A stretch of DNA of 64,000 nt from Psychroflexus torquis ATCC 700755 (lineage in GTDB: Bacteria > Bacteroidota > Bacteroidia > Flavobacteriales > Flavobacteriaceae), in assembly GCF_000153485.2 (NCBI RefSeq), contig NC_018721.1, positions 1,922,001-1,986,000 on the forward strand, in the 5' to 3' direction. Shown piece after piece: positions 9,753 to 42,449 of this stretch (position 1 is its first letter; each line of letters starts with the position of its first letter). A program made the position numbers and the translations under genes. The notes beneath the pieces are model-generated. The model worked only from the letters and a program-made list of their open reading frames with translations. It did no database searches and had not been told where the DNA came from.

Positions 9753-11426
9753 CTACTTATTCTTCCAGCTGTCTCTTAAGGTCACCGTTCTATTAAAAAC
9801 AAGCTTATGTTCTGTAGACTCTCTATCCACACAGAAATATCCAATGCGTTGGAATTGGAATTTGTCTTCCACTTTTGCAGACTTTAAGCTAGGCTCTACA
9901 TAAGCTTTGCCGATCTGTAAAGAATCAGGATTCACAAAATCTAAAAAGTCTTTGTCCTTATCTGCTGAGGGATCTTCCACAGAAAACAACCGATCATAAA
10001 GTCTCACCTCTACTTCTTCAGCATGAGGAATAGAGACCCAGTGAAGAGTTCCTTTTACTTTTCGTTGAGAAGCCTCTGTGCCACTCCCACTTTTGGTGTC
10101 TGGATCATAGGTACAATGCACCTCTAAAATAGTTCCATCTTCATCTTTCACTACCTCTTCCGCTTTAATGATATAAGCACTTTTCAAACGTACCTCTTTG
10201 CCTAATTTTAAGCGAAAAAACTTGCGGTTAGCTTCCTCTTTAAAGTCTTCTTGTTCTATATATAGTTCTCTAGAAAAAGGAATTTCGCGTTCTCCAGCAG
10301 ACTCATCTTCTTGGTTGTTCTCTGTAACAAGCCACTCTTCTTTCCCTTCAGGGTAATTGGTAATAATCACTTTTAAAGGATCCATCACCCCCATTACTCG
10401 TGGTGCTTTTTTGTTAAGATCATCTCTCACACAGAATTCCAGATGCGCTACATCTATCATATTTTCTCGCTTACCTATCCCTATACTCTCGGCAAAATTG
10501 CGGATAGATTCTGGAGTATAGCCTCGTCGTCGCAAGCCAGAAATAGTTGGCATCCTAGGATCATCCCAAGAATTAACGATGTTTTGCTCTACCAGTTGCG
10601 CTAACTTTCGTTTACTAACCATGGTGTGGCTCAAGTTACGTCGTGCAAATTCTCTTTGTTTTGGAATGAGCTGACCAGGTTGACTTACGCGATCGACGAA
10701 CCAATTGTAAAGCTCACGGTGAGGTAAAAATTCTAGGGTACAGAAAGAATGAGAAATAGATTCTATAAAATCTGATTCCCCATGAGCCCAATCGTACATA
10801 GGATAGACTTTCCAGTCATCTCCTGTGCGATGATGTGCCTTATGTAAACACCTGTACATCAAAGGATCACGCATAATCATATTGGGAGACGCCATATCAA
10901 TTTTAGCGCGAAGTACATGAGCTTTTTCTGCAGTTCCCCCATTTTTCATCGCTTCAAAAAGCTCTAAATTTTCTCCTACAGAACGCTGTCTATACGGACT
11001 GGCTGTTCCTGGCTGAGTAGGAGTTCCTTTTTGAGTCGCAATATCTTCAGACGATTGGCTGTCCACATAAGCATCACCAGCTTTAATTAACTCCACCGCC
11101 CAGTCATATAGTTTCTGAAAATAGTCTGAAGCATAACATTCCTCTGCCCATTCAAAACCAAGCCATTTCACATCGGACTTGATAGACTCTACGAAAACCG
11201 TTTCCTCTTTAATAGGATTGGTATCATCAAATCTTAAGTTGACAGGCGCTTTATACTTTAACCCCAAACCAAAGTTCAAACAAATTGATGAAGCATGACC
11301 TATGTGCAAAAATCCGTTAGGTTCTGGAGGAAACCTGAATTTAAGATCACTTACTTTATAGTCGGTTTTCAAATCTTCTTCAATAATCTGCTCGATGAAG
11401 TTCAATGATTTTTTTTCTTCAGACAT
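9753..11426 (-). CDS. glnS: Glutaminyl-tRNA synthetase
   Basis: The enzyme attaches glutamine to tRNA-Gln. The class I signatures are HIGH at residues 41-44 (PPEPNGFLHIGHAS) and VSKRK around residue 270. Also visible are NLRFDDTNP and the conserved GDDWKVYPMYDWAHGESD segment that distinguishes GlnRS from bacterial GluRS. The C-terminal third is the two-barrel anticodon-binding region, ending in the family pattern FNRTVTLRDSW. Length 557 is normal. Having GlnRS suggests Gln-tRNA is made directly rather than only through GatCAB. Single gene ending at a strong terminator. Confidence 0.97.
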   Translation of the reverse strand: MSEEKKSLNFIEQIIEEDLKTDYKVSDLKFRFPPEPNGFLHIGHASSICLNFGLGLKYKAPVNLRFDDTNPIKEETVFVESIKSDVKWLGFEWAEECYASDYFQKLYDWAVELIKAGDAYVDSQSSEDIATQKGTPTQPGTASPYRQRSVGENLELFEAMKNGGTAEKAHVLRAKIDMASPNMIMRDPLMYRCLHKAHHRTGDDWKVYPMYDWAHGESDFIESISHSFCTLEFLPHRELYNWFVDRVSQPGQLIPKQREFARRNLSHTMVSKRKLAQLVEQNIVNSWDDPRMPTISGLRRRGYTPESIRNFAESIGIGKRENMIDVAHLEFCVRDDLNKKAPRVMGVMDPLKVIITNYPEGKEEWLVTENNQEDESAGEREIPFSRELYIEQEDFKEEANRKFFRLKLGKEVRLKSAYIIKAEEVVKDEDGTILEVHCTYDPDTKSGSGTEASQRKVKGTLHWVSIPHAEEVEVRLYDRLFSVEDPSADKDKDFLDFVNPDSLQIGKAYVEPSLKSAKVEDKFQFQRIGYFCVDRESTEHKLVFNRTVTLRDSWKNK

Positions 11427-33792: not shown

Positions 33793-35847
33793 ATGAATAA
33801 AGTGAAAATACTGTTGATGTCATTCAGTGCATCAGCTTTGCTTTTTTCGTGTCAGGAGTCTAACAAAGAAGCCGATAACGAAGAGAAAGGGATTACCATG
33901 AAATACATGGACACAGCAGTGAACCCTCAAGACGACTTTTATAGCTACGTCAACGGAGGCTGGATGAAAACTGCAGAGATTCCAGATGATAGAACATCTT
34001 GGGGTGGTTTTCAAATCTTAAGAAAATCTACGGACAACGATGTTTTAGGGATTCTTAAAGAAGCTGAAAGTTCAGGAAAGTATGATGCAAATTCAGATCA
34101 AGGAAAAGCCATTCAGGTGTTTAACTCTATCATGGATACCGTTTCTAGAAACGCTGCTGGGGTAAGCCCGATCACTGGGAAGCTTGATTTGATTTCTGAA
34201 ATTAAGGACAAGAAGGATATTCAAAAACGTCTTGCAGAACAACCGACTTCCGTGTCGTCCCCATTTTTTGGAGTTTCTTCTTACTCAGACCCAGATAATA
34301 GCGATGTGAATGTTGCTTACGTAGGAACTGGAAGTTTAGGTCTTCCAGACCGAGACTATTATCTTGAGGAGGATGACAATTCAAAAGAGATCAGAGAAAA
34401 ATACAAAGAGCATATCGCAAGTATGTTGATGTATTTTGGAGAATCTCAAGACGAAGCTAAATTTAAAGCTGAAACTATTTTAGCTCTAGAAACTAAGCTA
34501 GCAGAACCTAGATTGGATAAAGTTGCTAGAAGAGATTTTAGAAATTTCAATAATAGATATGCTGTAAGCGATCTTGGAGAAGTCGCTAAAAATATCGATT
34601 TGAAAACGTATATGACCGATCTAGGCGTTGAAACCTTGCCAGATACCGTTTTGGTAATGGAGCCTAAATACATGGCCGCTTTGGACGAGTTGATGGTCGA
34701 AACTTCTCTTGAAGATTTAAAAACTTTGATGAGATGGTCTACTATTAACGACGCTTCAGATCAATTAAGCACAGACATCGCTACGACCAACTGGGAGTTT
34801 TATAGCAAAACCTTAAGCGGTGCTAAAGCTCAACGCCCACTAGACGAAAGAGCTCTTTCTGTCGTAAATGGAAGTATTGGTGAAGCTGTAGGTAAGCTTT
34901 ATGTGGATCAAAAATTCCCGCCAGAGGCTAAAGAAAAGGCTGAAAAAATGGTAGCGAATGTCATTACAGCTTTCAAAAACAGAATTGATAATTTGGAATG
35001 GATGACTGCGGAAACCAAAACACAAGCCATTGAAAAGCTTAACAAATTCACTGTCAAAATTGGATATCCAGATGAGTTTGAGGATTACAGTGATCTTAAA
35101 GTGGTTCCTGAAAATACCTTTTACGAAAATATGCAAGCGGTATCTTACTGGAATTATTTAGATAATTTAAGTAAAATTGGTAAGCCTGTGGATAAAACAG
35201 AATGGGGAATGTCTCCACAAACGGTGAATGCATATTTCAACCCACTTTATAATGAAATCGTTTTTCCTGCTGCTATCTTACAGCCTCCTTTCTATGATTA
35301 TGAGGCAGATGCTGCCGTAAATTATGGAGGAATAGGTGCTGTTATTGGTCACGAAATTTCTCATGCTTTCGATGATAGTGGGGCTAGATTTGACTCTGAC
35401 GGAAACCTCAACAACTGGTGGACCGATGGAGATCTTGAGCAATTTACTGAACGAGGAAATAAACTAGCGGACTTATACAGCAGCGTAGAAGTTCTTGATA
35501 GTGTTTACATCAATGGTAAATTCACACTAGGAGAAAATATCGGGGATCTAGGTGGAGTTTTAGGCGCTTATGATGGCCTAATGTTGCATTATGAGAATGA
35601 AAAAAAGCCCCAAAAAATCAATGGGTTTACTCCTGAGCAACGCTTCTTTATGTCTTGGGCAACCGTTTGGAGAACCAAAGTAAGAGAAGAAGCTTTGAGA
35701 ACACAAATCAAAACAGACCCTCATTCTCCAGGACAATATAGAGCGTATATTCCACTACAGAACGTAGATGCCTTCTATGAAGCTTTTGACTTGAAAGAAG
35801 GAGACGACTTATACATCGCTCCAGAAGATAGAGTGAGAATTTGGTAA
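33793..35847 (+). CDS. M13 family zinc metallopeptidase (neprilysin/PepO-like), lipoprotein
   Basis: A 684-residue peptidase. It has a lipobox (LLFSC, Cys 20) followed by a polar linker; the large alpha-helical N-terminal domain is typical of M13_N. The zinc motif HEISH is at residues 520-524 (VIGHEISHAFDDSGARFD), followed by the second Glu in ENIGDLGG and the family pattern FFMSWATVWR...PHSPGQYRA near the end. Ends in VRIW, the usual M13 C-terminus. It should degrade small peptides outside the cytoplasm. Followed by a strong terminator. Confidence 0.94.
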   Translation: MNKVKILLMSFSASALLFSCQESNKEADNEEKGITMKYMDTAVNPQDDFYSYVNGGWMKTAEIPDDRTSWGGFQILRKSTDNDVLGILKEAESSGKYDANSDQGKAIQVFNSIMDTVSRNAAGVSPITGKLDLISEIKDKKDIQKRLAEQPTSVSSPFFGVSSYSDPDNSDVNVAYVGTGSLGLPDRDYYLEEDDNSKEIREKYKEHIASMLMYFGESQDEAKFKAETILALETKLAEPRLDKVARRDFRNFNNRYAVSDLGEVAKNIDLKTYMTDLGVETLPDTVLVMEPKYMAALDELMVETSLEDLKTLMRWSTINDASDQLSTDIATTNWEFYSKTLSGAKAQRPLDERALSVVNGSIGEAVGKLYVDQKFPPEAKEKAEKMVANVITAFKNRIDNLEWMTAETKTQAIEKLNKFTVKIGYPDEFEDYSDLKVVPENTFYENMQAVSYWNYLDNLSKIGKPVDKTEWGMSPQTVNAYFNPLYNEIVFPAAILQPPFYDYEADAAVNYGGIGAVIGHEISHAFDDSGARFDSDGNLNNWWTDGDLEQFTERGNKLADLYSSVEVLDSVYINGKFTLGENIGDLGGVLGAYDGLMLHYENEKKPQKINGFTPEQRFFMSWATVWRTKVREEALRTQIKTDPHSPGQYRAYIPLQNVDAFYEAFDLKEGDDLYIAPEDRVRIW

Positions 35848-35974: not shown

Positions 35975-38320
35975 TTGTATTGTTTGCGGGCTTCCCAATG
36001 ACAAACTCCTGATTTTTATGTTGTACCTGACGGCACAATCTATTGATAGGATTATGCTACACATCATCCTTTTTTTGTCCTGACGGGACAATTAGGAGTG
36101 TTCTTCTCTTTTAAAAGGTAACCCTAAGCCCAATTTTAAACCCCTCAACTCACTTTGTCAATATGTCCCGTTAGGGACTAACTCTCGGTAAAAAAAGTGA
36201 ACGAAAAAAACAGCGTGCCTTTAGGTACGCCCTATGATCTGAGTGTTGCTTTTCGACTTCCCTATACTAGCTCCGGATTTTCATGTTGTACCTGACGCCA
36301 CAATCTGATGATATCATGATGCTTTGTGTTACCCATGTTATCTATATTTAGTCCCTAACGGGACAATTAGGGTTGTTCTTCTCTTTTTAAAGACACTATG
36401 GATTTTAATCTTTGTCCCGTTAGGGACTAACTCTCGGTAAAAAAAAAAAACGAAAGAAACAGCGTGCCTTTAGGTACGCCCTATGATTTTGAGTGTTGCT
36501 TTTCGACTTCCTTATAACTAGCTCCTGGTTTTTATATCGCACCTCACGGCACAATCTGATGATATCATGATGCTTTGTGCTACCCATGTTACCTATATTT
36601 AGTCCCTAACGGGACAATTAGGAGTGTTCTTCTCTTTTTAAAGACACTATGGATTTTAATCTTTGTCCCGTTAGGGACTAGCTCTCGGTAAAAAAAAGGT
36701 AAACGAAAAAACAGCGTGCCTTTAGGTACGCCCTATGATTTGGGGATTGCTTTTCGACGCCACTATGACTAGCTCCCGATTTTTATGTTGTTGCTAACGC
36801 CACAATATGGTGATATCATGATGCTTTATGTTACCCATGTTACCTATATTTAGTCCCTAACGGGACAATTAGGAGTGTTCTTCTCTTTTTAAAGACACTA
36901 TGGATTTTAATCTTTGTCCCGTTAGGGACTAACTCTTGGTAAAAAAAGATGAACGAAAAAACAGCGTGCCTTTAGGTATGCTCTATGATTTGGGGATTGC
37001 TTTTGACTTCCTTATACTAGCTCCAGATTTTATGTTGTACCTGACGGCACAATCTATTGATAGGATTATGCTACATATCATCCTTTTTTTGTCCTAACGG
37101 GACAATTAGGGTTGTTCTTCTCTTTTAAAAGGTAACACAAAGCCCAATTTTGAACCCCTCAAATCACTTTCTCAATATGTCCCGTCAGGGACTAGATCTC
37201 GGTAAAAAAAAGGTTAACGAAAAAATAGCGTGCCTTTAGGTACACCCTATGATTTGGGGATTGCTTTTCGACGTCACTATGACTAGCTCCTAATTTTTAT
37301 GTTGTTGCTAACGCCACAATCTGTTGGTATGATTGTACTTTGTGTAACCTATGTTTAGTCCCTAACGGGACAAATAGGAATGTTGTTCTCTTTTACGAGG
37401 TAAAGCTCAGCCCAATTTTAAACTCCTCAACTCACTTTATCAATATGTCCCGTTAGGGACTAAATCTCGGTAAAAAAAAGGTTAACGAAAGAATAGCGTG
37501 CCTTTAGGTACTCCCTATGATTTTGGGTGTTGCTTTTCGACTTCCTTATGACTAGCTCCTGACTTTTATATTGTACCTCACGGCACAATCTGATGATATC
37601 ATGATGCTTTGTGTTATCCATGCTACCTATGTTTAGTCCCTGACGGGACAGTTAAGAATGTTGTTCTCTTTTACAAGATAAAGCTAAGCCCAATTTTGAA
37701 CCCCTCAAATCACTTTCTCAATATGTCCCGTTAGGGACTAACTCTCAGTAAAAAAAAATAAACGAAAAAATAGCGTGCCTTTAGGTACGCCCTATGGTTT
37801 GCGTGTTGCTTTTCGACTTCCCTATGACTAGCTCCCGATTTTTATGTTGTACCTGACGGCACAATCTGGTGATATCATGATGCTTTGTGTTACCCATGTT
37901 ACCTATATTTAGTCCCTGACGGGACAGTTAAGAATGTTGTTCTCTTTTACAAGATAAAGCTAAGCCCAATTTTGAACCCCTCAAATCACTTTCTCAATAT
38001 GTCCCGTTAGGGACTAACTCTCGGTAAAAAAAAATAAACGAAAAAATAGCGTGCCTTTAGGTACGCCCTATGGTTTGCGTGTTGCTTTTCGACTTCCTTA
38101 TGACTAGCTCCCGATTTTTATGTTGTACCTCACAACACAATCTGATGATATCATGATGTTACCCATCTTTAGTCCCTAACGGGACAATTGAAGTGTTTGT
38201 TTTTTTTTAAAAACACACTATAGATTATGATCTTTGTCCCGTTAGGGACTAACTCTCGGTAAAAAAAAGGTTAACGAAAAAAGTGTGCCTTTAGGTACGC
38301 CCTATGGTTTTGTAATTATA
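35975..38320. repeat. Nine-unit tandem array of inverted palindrome pairs (REPIN/BIME-like)
   Basis: About 2.35 kb of direct repeats between two convergent genes. Each unit has GTCCCTAACGGGAC and, 63 or 88 bases later, its reverse complement GTCCCGTTAGGGAC. First palindromes start at 36077, 36351, 36602, 36853, 37091, 37358, 37636, 37912 and 38172 (spacing 238-278). Partners start at 36165, 36414, 36665, 36916, 37179, 37447, 37725, 38001 and 38236. Two spacer types exist: long (AAGCCCAATTTTGAACCCCT) and short (GACACTATGGATTTTAATCT), in the order L S S S L L L L S. Each unit also holds TGATATCATGATG and a hairpin GCGTGCCTTTAGGTACGC. No reading frame runs through it. No transposase is nearby. 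Confidence 0.9.
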
Positions 38321-38343: not shown

Positions 38344-40695
38344 TCACTTCCCAATTGTGCTTTCAAAAAGTTTTAGAATACGCCTATACTCATCTGTCCA
38401 ACTGCTAGGCTGAGTAAAGCCATGTCCTTCGATTGGGTAGACTGCCATTTCCCAATTTTCTTTCTCTAATTCTATAAGGCGTTGTGACAGCCTTACCACA
38501 TCTTGAAAATGGACATTGGTATCTACAACACCGTGAGCGATCAACAGATGCCCTTCAAGACCTTCAGCAAAGTAAATAGGTGACGACTTTCGGTAAGCTT
38601 CTGGATCTAGGTGAGGCTCATTCAGAATGTTGGAGGTATAGCCATGGTTATAATGAGCCCAGTCCGTTACAGATCTTAGAGCTGCTCCGGCGGCAAAAGT
38701 ATCTGGTTCATTGAATAAAGCCATCAAGGTGATAAAGCCGCCATAGCTTCCTCCATACATCCCGATTTTCTCAGGATCTATACTATAGTTATCTACTAAA
38801 TACTTAGCCCCATCAACTTGGTCAGATAAATCCTTTCCTCCCATATGTCTATAAATTCCTGTTCTCCAATTTCTCCCATATCCTGCACTTCCTCTATAGT
38901 CTATGTCCAAAACCGTATATCCAAGATCGGTCAAAAGATTATTGAACATATACTCTCTAAAATAACTCGACCACCATTTGTGAGCATTTTGAAGATAACC
39001 TGCCCCATGAACAAAAATTACCGCGGCTTTTTTATCAACATCTTTGTCTGGAGTATAAAGTCTCGCATAAGGTTTGGCACCATCTTCAGCGGTAAACTGA
39101 ATCAACTCTGGTGTTTTCCAATCATAACTTTTAAAAGCGTCAGACTGTCCAGAAGTGAGTTCTTCTAAAGAAGAATTCGCTTTAGTCCGCTTTAAATAAA
39201 GTTCCTCTGGTGTATTGGAATCCGAAAACAAGACCGCCATATACTTTTCATCTGGAGACAAACTCACTTGATGCTTACCTTCCATTGACGTCAGTTGGAT
39301 TTTTTCACCTCCCATAACCGGCATTTTATAAAAATGACGCTCTCCTGGATGCACTTCAGAAGACGTAAAAAACCATGAGTTTTGGTCTAAAGACAGTTGG
39401 GGGTTAAAGATTTCATACTCGCCATCTGTCAGCTGAATTTGTTTGTTCTTCTTAACATCATGAACATATAGATGTGAGTATCCTGTCGCTTCAGACTGGT
39501 AATACACATGAGTATTATCGCCTAGCCAACCCAATGTTCCTCCACCGTAATAACTACCAATCCCAGGGCCCGCAATCCAAGCTTCGTCATGTTGTCTATC
39601 TAAAGTTTCTAAAGCGCCCGTGTCCAAATTCAAAAGGCTAATCCAACGGTCCTTATTGTCTTGAGCTCTCATAGACAAAACTGCCTGTTGATCTGTAGAA
39701 GAAAATTTTACATCAGAAAAACTGACTTCACGTTCCTTGTTTTCCCATTCTCGATCTGGATAATTCTTGGTATAACTAGGTAAATCTGTGAGGCCAGGCA
39801 GTGAGGAAACATCTATCTTGAAAACCGTGTCTTTTTCGATATGGTAAAGCCACAAGTCTCTTTGTTGAGTCTGGTCGCCTACTTTGCTTCTCGCCTCCAA
39901 GAGTTTTGTATAGCCAGAAGCATCTACATAATTTGGAACTTCTGTAGATTCTGATTCTGAAGGTTCGTAAGTTTGAAAGGCTAAAAACTGACCTGTTTCA
40001 CTAATGTTGAAATTAAAGGCTCTTTTTTTATCTAAATAAAAGACGAATTTTTCACCCTCAAATAACTCTTTGTTTTTATCTCTGAGTTCGGAGTTTTCCT
40101 TTTGAGTACGCACTTCTTCAAGGAGACTTAAATTTTCATCTTCTAACCATTGATTTTTTTCAGATTTTTTAGAGGTTTGGTCGTTAGAGCTTCCAGATTC
40201 TATGTTGGTTTTCTGCTGAATTTGCCCTAGATCAGCATCATAAATAAAGAGATTATTTCTTGAAATAAAGGCATACTTTGAAGTCGTAATAAACTTTGGA
40301 CTCTGGATGCGTTCTCCAAGATCCAAGATGAGCTGGGCCGATTTCTTTTTCTTATCGTAGAGGTATAAATCTCCAGATTTCACGAAAAGCTTTTGAGTTT
40401 GTTTATCGTTATAATCCCCGTAAGCAGGAATTTTTGACTTACGCTCTGTAAGGCTTACTTTCTCGATGTTCGATTTGTTTTTCAACCTTTTTTGATACAA
40501 CGAGTCAGAAAGCTGTTGTTCTGGATTATAGTCGAAATAAATAATGTCCGACTCCTCGTTCCATTCTATATTAGAGGGAAACGTTCCAAACCATTGTGGA
40601 TCTTGCATGATTTGGTTGACAGTCAGATCAGATTGGGCTTTTCCGATCCAACTTGCTAGAAAAATGAAGATAAAAATGCGCAGTGAAAAGTTCAT
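38344..40695 (-). CDS. S9 family prolyl oligopeptidase (DPP IV-like)
   Basis: A ~783-residue secreted serine peptidase. It has a signal peptide ending near IGKAQ (residue 21), an eight-bladed-propeller DPPIV N-terminal domain (to about residue 520) and an alpha/beta hydrolase domain at the C-terminus. The nucleophile is Ser650 in GGSYGGF; the Asp is in HGVVDTNVHF and the His in EGHGF, near the end. It likely releases dipeptides or cuts after proline outside the cytoplasm. The frame opens at 40722, but the ATG at 40695 (MNFSLRIFIF) gives the right signal peptide. Confidence 0.94.
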   Translation of the reverse strand: MNFSLRIFIFIFLASWIGKAQSDLTVNQIMQDPQWFGTFPSNIEWNEESDIIYFDYNPEQQLSDSLYQKRLKNKSNIEKVSLTERKSKIPAYGDYNDKQTQKLFVKSGDLYLYDKKKKSAQLILDLGERIQSPKFITTSKYAFISRNNLFIYDADLGQIQQKTNIESGSSNDQTSKKSEKNQWLEDENLSLLEEVRTQKENSELRDKNKELFEGEKFVFYLDKKRAFNFNISETGQFLAFQTYEPSESESTEVPNYVDASGYTKLLEARSKVGDQTQQRDLWLYHIEKDTVFKIDVSSLPGLTDLPSYTKNYPDREWENKEREVSFSDVKFSSTDQQAVLSMRAQDNKDRWISLLNLDTGALETLDRQHDEAWIAGPGIGSYYGGGTLGWLGDNTHVYYQSEATGYSHLYVHDVKKNKQIQLTDGEYEIFNPQLSLDQNSWFFTSSEVHPGERHFYKMPVMGGEKIQLTSMEGKHQVSLSPDEKYMAVLFSDSNTPEELYLKRTKANSSLEELTSGQSDAFKSYDWKTPELIQFTAEDGAKPYARLYTPDKDVDKKAAVIFVHGAGYLQNAHKWWSSYFREYMFNNLLTDLGYTVLDIDYRGSAGYGRNWRTGIYRHMGGKDLSDQVDGAKYLVDNYSIDPEKIGMYGGSYGGFITLMALFNEPDTFAAGAALRSVTDWAHYNHGYTSNILNEPHLDPEAYRKSSPIYFAEGLEGHLLIAHGVVDTNVHFQDVVRLSQRLIELEKENWEMAVYPIEGHGFTQPSSWTDEYRRILKLFESTIGK

Positions 40696-40790: not shown

Positions 40791-41660
40791 ATGACTTCAA
40801 AACCCCATTTAAGTTTAACGCTCCTCTTGCTACTTGTTTTTAATTTGACTTACTCTCAAGAGAAAAAAGCCTTTTCCCTGTATACCCAAGAAGGAGAAAA
40901 AATCTCTTATGATACTATGCTGGACAGTTTAAGCAAAACCAATGTGGTTCTGTTTGGAGAGTATCATAATAATCCTATTTCCCATTGGTTACAATTTGGA
41001 GTTGTCTCCGATTTAAAAACCTCTAAAATCAACCTTGCCATCGGTGCTGAAATGTTTGAAACCGACACACAATCTGTTCTTAACTTGTATTTAAAAGATA
41101 GCCTTACAGAACCTAAGTTTAAAAAAGAGGCTAGAGTTTGGAGCAATTATTCCACAGATTATAAGCCATTGGTAGAGCTAGCAAAACGAGATTCTATCCC
41201 CTATATAGCGACCAATATCCCAAGACCTTATGCCACTAGTGTGTACAGAAATGGTGGCTTTTCAGCTTTAGATAGCCTTCCTAAAAACGAGTTGAAGTGG
41301 ATAGCGCCATTGCCTATTCCTTTTGATATCCATTTAAGTTCATACCAAAATATGCTAGACATGATGGGGGGACATGGAGGGGAAGATCTCGTAAAAGCCC
41401 AAGCCATAAAAGACGCGACTATGGCTCATTTTATATTAGAAAATTTAAAACCAAACCAAGTCTTTGTCCACCTTAACGGAAGCTACCATTCCAATTTTTT
41501 TGAAGGTATTTACTGGTATCTTAAAACCTACAGAGAAAACCTCAACATCCTAACCCTAACCACGGTTGAACAAAAAAACGTGCATCAATTGAAGGAGGAA
41601 CACAAAGGTCTAGCGAATTTTATTATTGTTGTAGACGAAAACATGACCAAAACGTATTAA
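40791..41660 (+). CDS. ChaN-family heme-binding-like exported protein
   Basis: A 289-residue protein with a signal peptide ending near LTYSQ (residue 23). The mature domain has VVLFGEYHNNPISHWLQ, AIGAEMFETDTQSVL and VFVHLNGSYHSNFFEGI, which are signatures of the ChaN/haem-binding uptake family (Cofac_haem_bdg). The conserved Glu/His in GEYHNN and the His in LNGSYHS would be ligand residues. No Cys lipobox, unlike some relatives. Located three bases before the omega-amidase gene, so they share a transcript. Confidence 0.85.
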   Translation: MTSKPHLSLTLLLLLVFNLTYSQEKKAFSLYTQEGEKISYDTMLDSLSKTNVVLFGEYHNNPISHWLQFGVVSDLKTSKINLAIGAEMFETDTQSVLNLYLKDSLTEPKFKKEARVWSNYSTDYKPLVELAKRDSIPYIATNIPRPYATSVYRNGGFSALDSLPKNELKWIAPLPIPFDIHLSSYQNMLDMMGGHGGEDLVKAQAIKDATMAHFILENLKPNQVFVHLNGSYHSNFFEGIYWYLKTYRENLNILTLTTVEQKNVHQLKEEHKGLANFIIVVDENMTKTY

Positions 41661-41663
41661 ATA

Positions 41664-42449
41664 ATGAACGATACTCTTCAGATCTCTTATATACAAGCCG
41701 ACTTAATTTGGGAACATCCCAATGCAAACAGAGCTGTTTTTGAAAAAAAAATAGCCACTTGCCCAAAGGATACCGAGGTGATTATTTTACCCGAAATGTT
41801 TAACACAGGCTTTTCTATGAATGCTGAAGCCAACGCACAAGAAGTGCCAGACGTTTTGGAATGGATGAAAGCTCAATCTAAAAAACACCACGCAGCGCTA
41901 ACGGGAAGTGCCATGGTAAAAGAAAATGGAAAGTATTTCAACAGGATGTTCTTTGTAGAGCCTAATGGAAAAGTCTCAAAATACGATAAAAAACACTTGT
42001 TTACTTTAGCAAAAGAACAGGAAACGTATACACCTGGCAACGAAAGGTGTGTCGTGCATTATAAAGGTTGGAACATTTGTTTGATGGTTTGCTACGATTT
42101 GCGTTTTCCAGTCTGGGCTAGGAATAAAGATGATTATGAGGTCTTGATTTATGTTGCCAATTGGCCAGCAAAGCGAATCTCCGCGTGGGATACTTTATTA
42201 AAAGCCCGTGCTATCGAAAACATGAGTTATTGTATTGGCGTTAATATAATTGGAACCGATGGAAATAATTTTCCTTACTTAGGTCATTCTGCGGCCTATA
42301 ATGTATTGGGAGAACCCTTAAGCTCTCACCTTCCAGAAGAGGAGGTCATAGAAACTGTCATTTTAAAAAAATCTGACCTTGAAACGACTCGAGAAAAACT
42401 AGGCTTTTTAAAAGATAAAGATAGCTTTGAGTTCACTACTGAACAATAA
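41664..42449 (+). CDS. Omega-amidase / nitrilase-family hydrolase (YafV-like)
   Basis: A 261-residue carbon-nitrogen hydrolase. The Glu-Lys-Cys triad is visible: Glu in ILPEMFNTGFSM, Lys in YDKKHLF and Cys in MVCYDLRFPVWARN. The pattern matches YafV/Nit2-type omega-amidases, which hydrolyse alpha-ketoglutaramate and alpha-ketosuccinamate and so repair products of glutamine transaminases. It has no signal peptide. Confidence 0.92.
   Translation: MNDTLQISYIQADLIWEHPNANRAVFEKKIATCPKDTEVIILPEMFNTGFSMNAEANAQEVPDVLEWMKAQSKKHHAALTGSAMVKENGKYFNRMFFVEPNGKVSKYDKKHLFTLAKEQETYTPGNERCVVHYKGWNICLMVCYDLRFPVWARNKDDYEVLIYVANWPAKRISAWDTLLKARAIENMSYCIGVNIIGTDGNNFPYLGHSAAYNVLGEPLSSHLPEEEVIETVILKKSDLETTREKLGFLKDKDSFEFTTEQ

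Follow-up and report, generated by a model that had tools for sequence, protein, structure and literature searches.

The systems closest to the locus described here are the REPIN and BIME families of E. coli and Pseudomonas with their TnpA-REP (RAYT) partners. These families consist of short extragenic palindromes in inverted pairs and arrays, with GTAG at the 5' foot of the stem and a high dispersed copy number, and the gene for the Y1 enzyme is flanked by repeats that also occur without it. The RAYT enzymes belong to class 2 and carry NP after the catalytic tyrosine. In the parts of the two papers used here, irregular stems are needed by the E. coli enzyme (PMC8266576), and REP dimers reiterated in tandem together with flanking DNA are reported from other bacteria (PMC3733652). 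Insertion sequences of the IS200/IS605 type (subclass 1.1) have a related small Y1 enzyme, whose Y motif is Y---Q lacking HH, and hairpins near the gene, and their gene-bearing units are present in multiple, nearly identical copies. In the sections of the TnpA-Y1 survey on which we draw (PMC6006769), subclass 1.2 is given by DH[IV]H, WQ and Y---Q--HH, a median length of 148 aa, a shortened core with a C-terminal domain of its own and occurrence in Bacteroidetes or Cyanobacteria; its REP entry is 'no', terminal IS200 structures are 'generally' absent and it is described as without the IS properties of subclass 1.1. The same sections list a subclass 2.6 in Bacteroidetes, with NH[LIV]H, YIH[QN]NP and 'atypical secondary structures'.

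The window analyzed here is a stretch of 64,000 nt of Psychroflexus torquis ATCC 700755 (NC_018721.1, positions 1,922,001 to 1,986,000), in which a nine-unit array of inverted palindrome pairs had been predicted. A profile search confirmed the nine units as 18 repeats of 69-85 bp at window positions 36017-38306, strictly alternating in orientation and thus forming nine inverted pairs, between convergent genes for an M13 family peptidase (ending at 35847) and an S9 family peptidase (ending at 38344). The repeats and neighboring genes are listed in Table 1. Profile E-values for single repeats ranged from 4e-6 to 2e-18 and are not independent, since the profile was seeded partly with the array's own repeats; Tandem Repeats Finder detected the array independently, with scores of 1382 and 1701. 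The right-hand palindromes start at 36165, 36414, 36665, 36916, 37179, 37447, 37725, 38001 and 38236, a step of 235-278, and a degenerate unit piece was seen by eye just left of 36017. A separate hairpin scan demanded stems of at least 6 pairs, was therefore blind to the five-pair stems of the array, and was set aside as evidence.

Table 1. Repeats of the array and flanking genes, in window coordinates.
Feature	Position	Strand	Support
Left neighbor, M13 family peptidase gene, 684 aa	33793..35847	+	Pfam PF05649, PF01431
Repeat 1, pair 1 left arm; outer palindrome shorter by one base	36017..36091	-	nhmmer 25.3 bits
Repeat 2, right arm of pair 1; linker before, 71 nt	36163..36236	+	61.8 bits
Repeat 3; 46-nt gap after repeat 2	36283..36366	-	43.7 bits
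Repeat 4; linker before, 45 nt	36412..36485	+	63.4 bits
Repeat 5	36533..36617	-	47.4 bits
Repeat 6; linker before, 45 nt	36663..36737	+	64.9 bits
Repeat 7	36784..36868	-	37.8 bits
Repeat 8; linker before, 45 nt	36914..36987	+	57.0 bits
Repeat 9, outer palindrome one base short as in repeat 1	37031..37105	-	28.3 bits
Repeat 10; linker before, 71 nt	37177..37251	+	60.6 bits
Repeat 11	37298..37373	-	36.2 bits
Repeat 12; linker before, 71 nt	37445..37519	+	60.1 bits
Repeat 13	37567..37651	-	44.6 bits
Repeat 14; linker before, 71 nt	37723..37796	+	57.1 bits
Repeat 15	37843..37927	-	49.1 bits
Repeat 16; linker before, 71 nt	37999..38072	+	61.9 bits
Repeat 17	38119..38187	-	42.4 bits
Repeat 18, adjoins S9 gene end; linker before, 46 nt	38234..38306	+	61.3 bits
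Right neighbor, S9 family peptidase gene, 792 aa	38344..40722	-	Pfam PF00326, PF00930

Each unit had been described as carrying one palindromic sequence with its exact reverse complement, a third hairpin and a further sequence. The pairing was found in all units, but not the exactness: GTCCCGTTAGGGAC is exact in eight of nine units and has one substitution in the remaining one, while its partner GTCCCTAACGGGAC is exact in five, has one substitution in two and is one base short in two, one of the short copies also having a further substitution. The third hairpin and the further sequence were likewise present, but GCGTGCCTTTAGGTACGC is exact in five units with one change in the other four, and TGATATCATGATG is exact in only six. 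The third hairpin also has an inverted partner that had been missed, GTACC....GGCAC (for example at 36021-36038), and the unit is therefore made of two nested inverted pairs. The two spacer types were borne out in their predicted order, L SSS LLLL S, as linkers of either 71 or 45-46 nt between outward-facing repeats when measured by our own repeat borders. A search of the whole genome found 17 copies of the exact 14-bp palindrome, 13 within the array and four elsewhere.

A typical repeat is formed of two hairpins, with GTCCCGTTAGGGAC followed by 8 nt, GGTA[AG], about 25 nt and then GTGCC-TTTA-GGTAC. In an alignment of 36 repeats from the genus, 32 rows retain a G-T mismatch in the second stem, reminiscent of the irregular stems of E. 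coli TnpA-REP in the part of that work used here (PMC8266576), and the first stem had one pair changed on both sides in five rows. The tails after both hairpins favor nnnATAT at an equal offset (in the 34 of the 36 rows that entered this comparison), and each repeat may, from this shared offset, be a doubled module. A structured RNA gene or cis-regulatory RNA, as had been suggested, would fit the conserved hairpins and the six cells of the alignment changed on both sides of a pair, but we consider it very improbable: the four Rfam matches at E up to 1 were all far from the gathering score, both strands carry these elements, owing to the inverted pairs, with no single transcript sense, and the repeats adjoin unrelated genes and a Y1 gene. 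Integron attC sites were considered as well and set aside because neighboring units share sequence.

The same intergenic site in a sister species (genome G032) holds seven alternating pairs, with one arm truncated and two extra half repeats, and between these repeats lies an intact gene for a 153-aa Y1 transposase (L130 7760-8221, minus strand). Comparison of the window with this genome gave two long alignments, 89.1% and 90.3% identical, which include the array ends, and a syntenic array in an independent assembly speaks against an assembly artefact. Both spacer types were found in both sister species. The arms of the repeats do not track spacer type (p 0.36 and 0.37), which fits exchange between units and supports the earlier proposal that units have been shuffled or converted; because the two types were themselves defined by the spacers, an effect of type on spacer identity is circular and only the arm result is informative. 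Homogenization within species was weak and clearest for the right arm (p 0.003).

Orthologues of the S9 gene were present in 18 of 27 genomes of the genus. Among the nine with S9 identity of at least 76%, seven have a repeat that starts no more than 300 bp from the S9 stop. The number of copies at this site is 18 in P. torquis (G000), 14 plus the Y1 gene in G032, five in G035 and one each in G013, G004 and G008, with an additional partial repeat in G013 and one partial repeat of opposite orientation in G001; no match above 4 bits was obtained there by profile search in G016, G005 and nine more distant genomes. In five other species, too, the first repeat past the end of the S9 gene has the orientation of repeat 18, and in G008 and G001 the repeat at this site is the sole one found in the genome. 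The site is most simply explained by a single old repeat at the S9 3' end, with growth in place in three species. The suggestion of a nursery of REP elements fits this only loosely, in that one site holds from 1 to 18 repeats in different species. A plain tandem repeat produced by replication slippage with no mobile element would agree with tandem units whose number differs between species, but it is hard to credit given that these repeats recur at many other sites across several genera and bracket a transposase gene.

The original prediction had proposed looking for an associated Y1 transposase, and such a gene was found tied to the repeats in relatives, although not intact in P. torquis. Six of the 16 repeat-bearing genomes (G032, G004, G035, G195, G075, where the frame is broken, and G184) have a Y1 gene between inward-facing repeats, and G218 has one with a repeat on one side only; the other nine gave no Y1 match beside the repeats. 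In a tree of 24 rows, which omits the short or distant rows L014, L020, L093 and L095 as well as L017, which had no match to place, the Y1 proteins of the three genus members G004, G032 and G035 form one clade (support 99/98). The G032 enzyme has DHIH, WQ and YIQNQEEHH in 153 aa, and these motifs match the definition of TnpA-Y1 subclass 1.2, in length and in host phylum as well, rather than class 2, as far as can be judged from the protein sequence and the sections of PMC6006769 used here. The gene differs from subclass 1.2 as described in those sections in being flanked by palindromic repeats. It shares with subclass 2.6 a Bacteroidota Y1 gene, unusual palindromes and copies elsewhere, but has DHIH and YIQNQ where that subclass has NH[LIV]H and YIH[QN]NP (PMC6006769, same sections).

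The repeats might also be remains of an ordinary IS200/IS605 element, that is, two insertion-sequence ends and small derivatives of them. The G032 enzyme passed the NCBIfam IS200/IS605 model (65.6 bits against a cut-off of 55) and failed the REP transposase model REP_Tyr_transpos (36.1 against 80), and the closest solved structures by sequence, 2xm3, 2xma and 2xo6 (E 9e-6 to 3e-5), were deposited as 'transposase'. We nevertheless regard this explanation as rather unlikely. YIQNQEEHH, with HH in the Y motif, is the signature of subclass 1.2, without the IS properties of subclass 1.1 according to the cited sections of PMC6006769. No multi-copy gene-bearing unit was seen, G004, G032 and G035 each having a single Y1 gene of the cognate clade in a count that leaves unplaced two weak matches in G032 and one in G035. 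The repeats beside the gene point toward one another, and gene-free arrays of them occur as well; two P. torquis loci that we read as IS200-type (L037 and L038) are without a repeat of the array's family. A profile search of all the stretches around other Y1 genes of this genome (L036-L044) likewise found no repeat of this family.

Thirteen Y1 matches in P. torquis were considered as partners, and the search among them yielded no intact member of the cognate clade. Five were placed in the tree and fall outside that clade; L014 and L021 have internal stops; one is a remnant next to the second set of arrays; the MSRKYKF type accounts for L018, L019, L020 and L022; and L017 failed to match the Y1 profile. 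A subclass-1.2-like profile found only two genes in this genome, both outside the cognate clade. Separately, L036 (G000:C1:3300000-3316000) contains four closely similar Y1 genes of the MSRKYKF type, at 3303353, 3306604, 3310229 and 3311708, which alternate with open reading frames whose shared core resembles Rhs by eye, as if the Y1 gene had been duplicated with each cassette.

The P. torquis genome (4.32 Mb) has at least 47 repeats in three regions by covariance model (150 of 2003 first-look candidates scored), with 18 in the array, 27 at 2615444-2623743 that form a second subfamily in three clusters, and one pair at 3956072-3956212. Eight of the 27 genomes of the genus have repeats at E up to 0.001, numbering at least 47, 34, 22, 18, 6, 3, 1 and 1, and under a stricter filter (E up to 1e-4) ten of 249 genomes sampled from the family have them, in nine genera. 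In G195 at least 23 repeats were found, again with part of the candidates scored, more dispersed than in P. torquis, with inward pairs of 137-146 bp at five further places. A further array lies between two genes in G013 (L056 6358-7338) and G035 (L137 6321-7188), and the window orthologues of these genes, at 40791-41660 and 41664-42449, are 3 bp apart with no repeats. Beside the second subfamily, a Y1 remnant with stops (L035 9875-10015, within 9800-10040) adjoins a repeat array and resembles L013 and by eye the P. torquis gene at 356457, not the cognate enzyme; as by eye it is of another Y1 type, it was rejected as support for a partner enzyme. Near the same arrays are a tandem array of 66-bp units whose reading frame is open and shows a 22-residue motif again and again (L035 1485-2221, G000:C1:2613484-2614220), and fragments at L035 3187-3350 and 11760-11800 that resemble by eye the starts of nearby genes of 244 and 250 aa.

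Taken with the strict alternation of the 18 repeats, the Y1 gene inside the syntenic array, the Y1 genes between inward-facing repeats in six genomes and the varying copy number at one site, these results make it highly probable that the array consists of tandem REPIN-like elements of a family partnered by a subclass-1.2-type Y1 (HuH) transposase, amplified in place at an old site from which the enzyme is now absent; transposition itself we infer. The enzyme would recognize the hairpins on single-stranded DNA and move repeat pairs. The array would have grown in place by recombination between units, starting from the old single repeat at the S9 3' end. Either P. torquis lost the enzyme or the sister species gained it, and the array would persist as an orphan that may also help to end transcription.

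The REPIN/BIME reading of the original prediction stands in part: the inverted-pair geometry, the link to a Y1 gene and exchange between units are borne out. The locus is REPIN-like by anatomy and is not classed as a classical REPIN/RAYT system: we tested enzyme class, the 5' GTAG foot and copy number, and found YIQNQEEHH in an enzyme below the REP_Tyr_transpos cut-off instead of a class 2 protein, GTA[AG] about 9 nt 3' of the stem (GGTA[AG] 8 nt after the first stem) instead of GTAG at its 5' foot, and at least 47 repeats in three regions rather than hundreds dispersed. Two hairpins per repeat are a further difference. The tandem array itself was confirmed, but REP dimers reiterated in tandem (PMC3733652, in the part used here) mean that its form alone is not new; the geometry has precedent and the unusual part is the enzyme. 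If the proposed partnership is correct, small transposase-like proteins of many Bacteroidota gain a substrate and a likely job, and a second independent case is added, beside E. coli and Pseudomonas, of an insertion-sequence enzyme becoming the partner of a repeat family. The S9 site, with 1 to 18 repeats in relatives and an enzyme gene in one array, offers a ready system for following the growth of a REP array and its fate without the enzyme.

The repeats could instead, or in addition, be host-useful elements at gene ends, acting as terminators, mRNA stabilizers or protein-binding sites, which is compatible with a mobile origin and which we hold as a tentative possibility. The genes on either side are convergent at 14 of 31 repeat clusters, codirectional at 14 and divergent at two, with one cluster unclassed; nine predicted terminator-like sites were found in the region against 1.9 expected; and the S9 3' repeat is kept in G008 and G001 as their sole repeat. 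On the other hand, that repeat is absent in two of nine close relatives, several clusters are one site in different species and so are not independent events, and avoidance of promoters alone would give an equal bias in placement. All nine terminator-like sites are on the plus strand, yet the flanking genes are convergent. From its sequence, a role of the array in ending transcription is possible.

Hairpins were also found around Y1 genes of this type beyond the array's own family. In 18 of 29 genus and family Y1 loci the inverted match between left and right flanks beat all 200 shuffles; the 11 that failed include three Y1 genes of other types and the motif-bearing L041, L133 and L199. By eye, the palindrome near the gene differs between clades across these 29 loci. 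Of 296 genomes of the phylum, 131 had a match at E up to 1e-25 to a profile of nine proteins of this kind; weaker matches may be other Y1 types. All 30 phylum loci fetched have the Y--Q--HH motif, and 20 beat all 100 shuffles. Less favorably, matched flank pairs lay above the 95th percentile of mismatched pairs in 13 of the 30, and in only 12 did the inverted orientation outscore the direct one. An inward-facing arrangement of the flanking hairpins can thus be stated for the window's own repeat family but not for the phylum as a whole. When either orientation was allowed, the two flanks shared a repeat with a score of at least 30 in 23 of 27 loci, compared with three controls taken from flanks 900-1250 bp away (three of the 30 loci, near contig ends, were skipped), although in two of these three controls the score was higher than that near the gene. 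Perfect hairpins in these 27 loci numbered 37 near the gene and seven in the controls.

On this evidence and the counts that follow, we think it likely that subclass-1.2 Y1 transposases are the enzymes of their own Bacteroidota-wide REP system, in which GC-rich hairpins with GTA[AG] about 9 nt further on form pairs and arrays. If so, REPs and enzyme would have become partners twice, on the second occasion out of the IS200 side of the Y1 family rather than class 2. Full-text literature searches, which left most subscription journals outside their scope and are no proof of absence, returned no title or abstract start linking subclass 1.2 to REPs. The counts come from 43 Y1 loci with Y--Q--HH, namely the 53 of 59 loci that scored at least 150, less three duplicates, two without the motif and five near contig ends; the sample is not random, being the best locus from each of the 30 top genomes of the 131 that matched plus the genus and family loci chosen earlier. 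Near the gene there were 188 hairpins against 24 in control flanks, with at least one hairpin in 42 of 43 loci (19 of the controls) and hairpins on both sides in 35. Hairpins tagged with GTA[AG] numbered 58 against four, in 26 of 43 loci against four (Fisher p 4e-7), and 17 loci had no tagged hairpin near the gene. With the window's own repeat family excluded, a tagged hairpin was still found in 22 of 39 loci. In 33 of the 58 the distance from stem to tag start is 9 nt, and GTAG stood at the 5' foot of one of 211 hairpins near Y1 genes (53 loci, including three duplicates).
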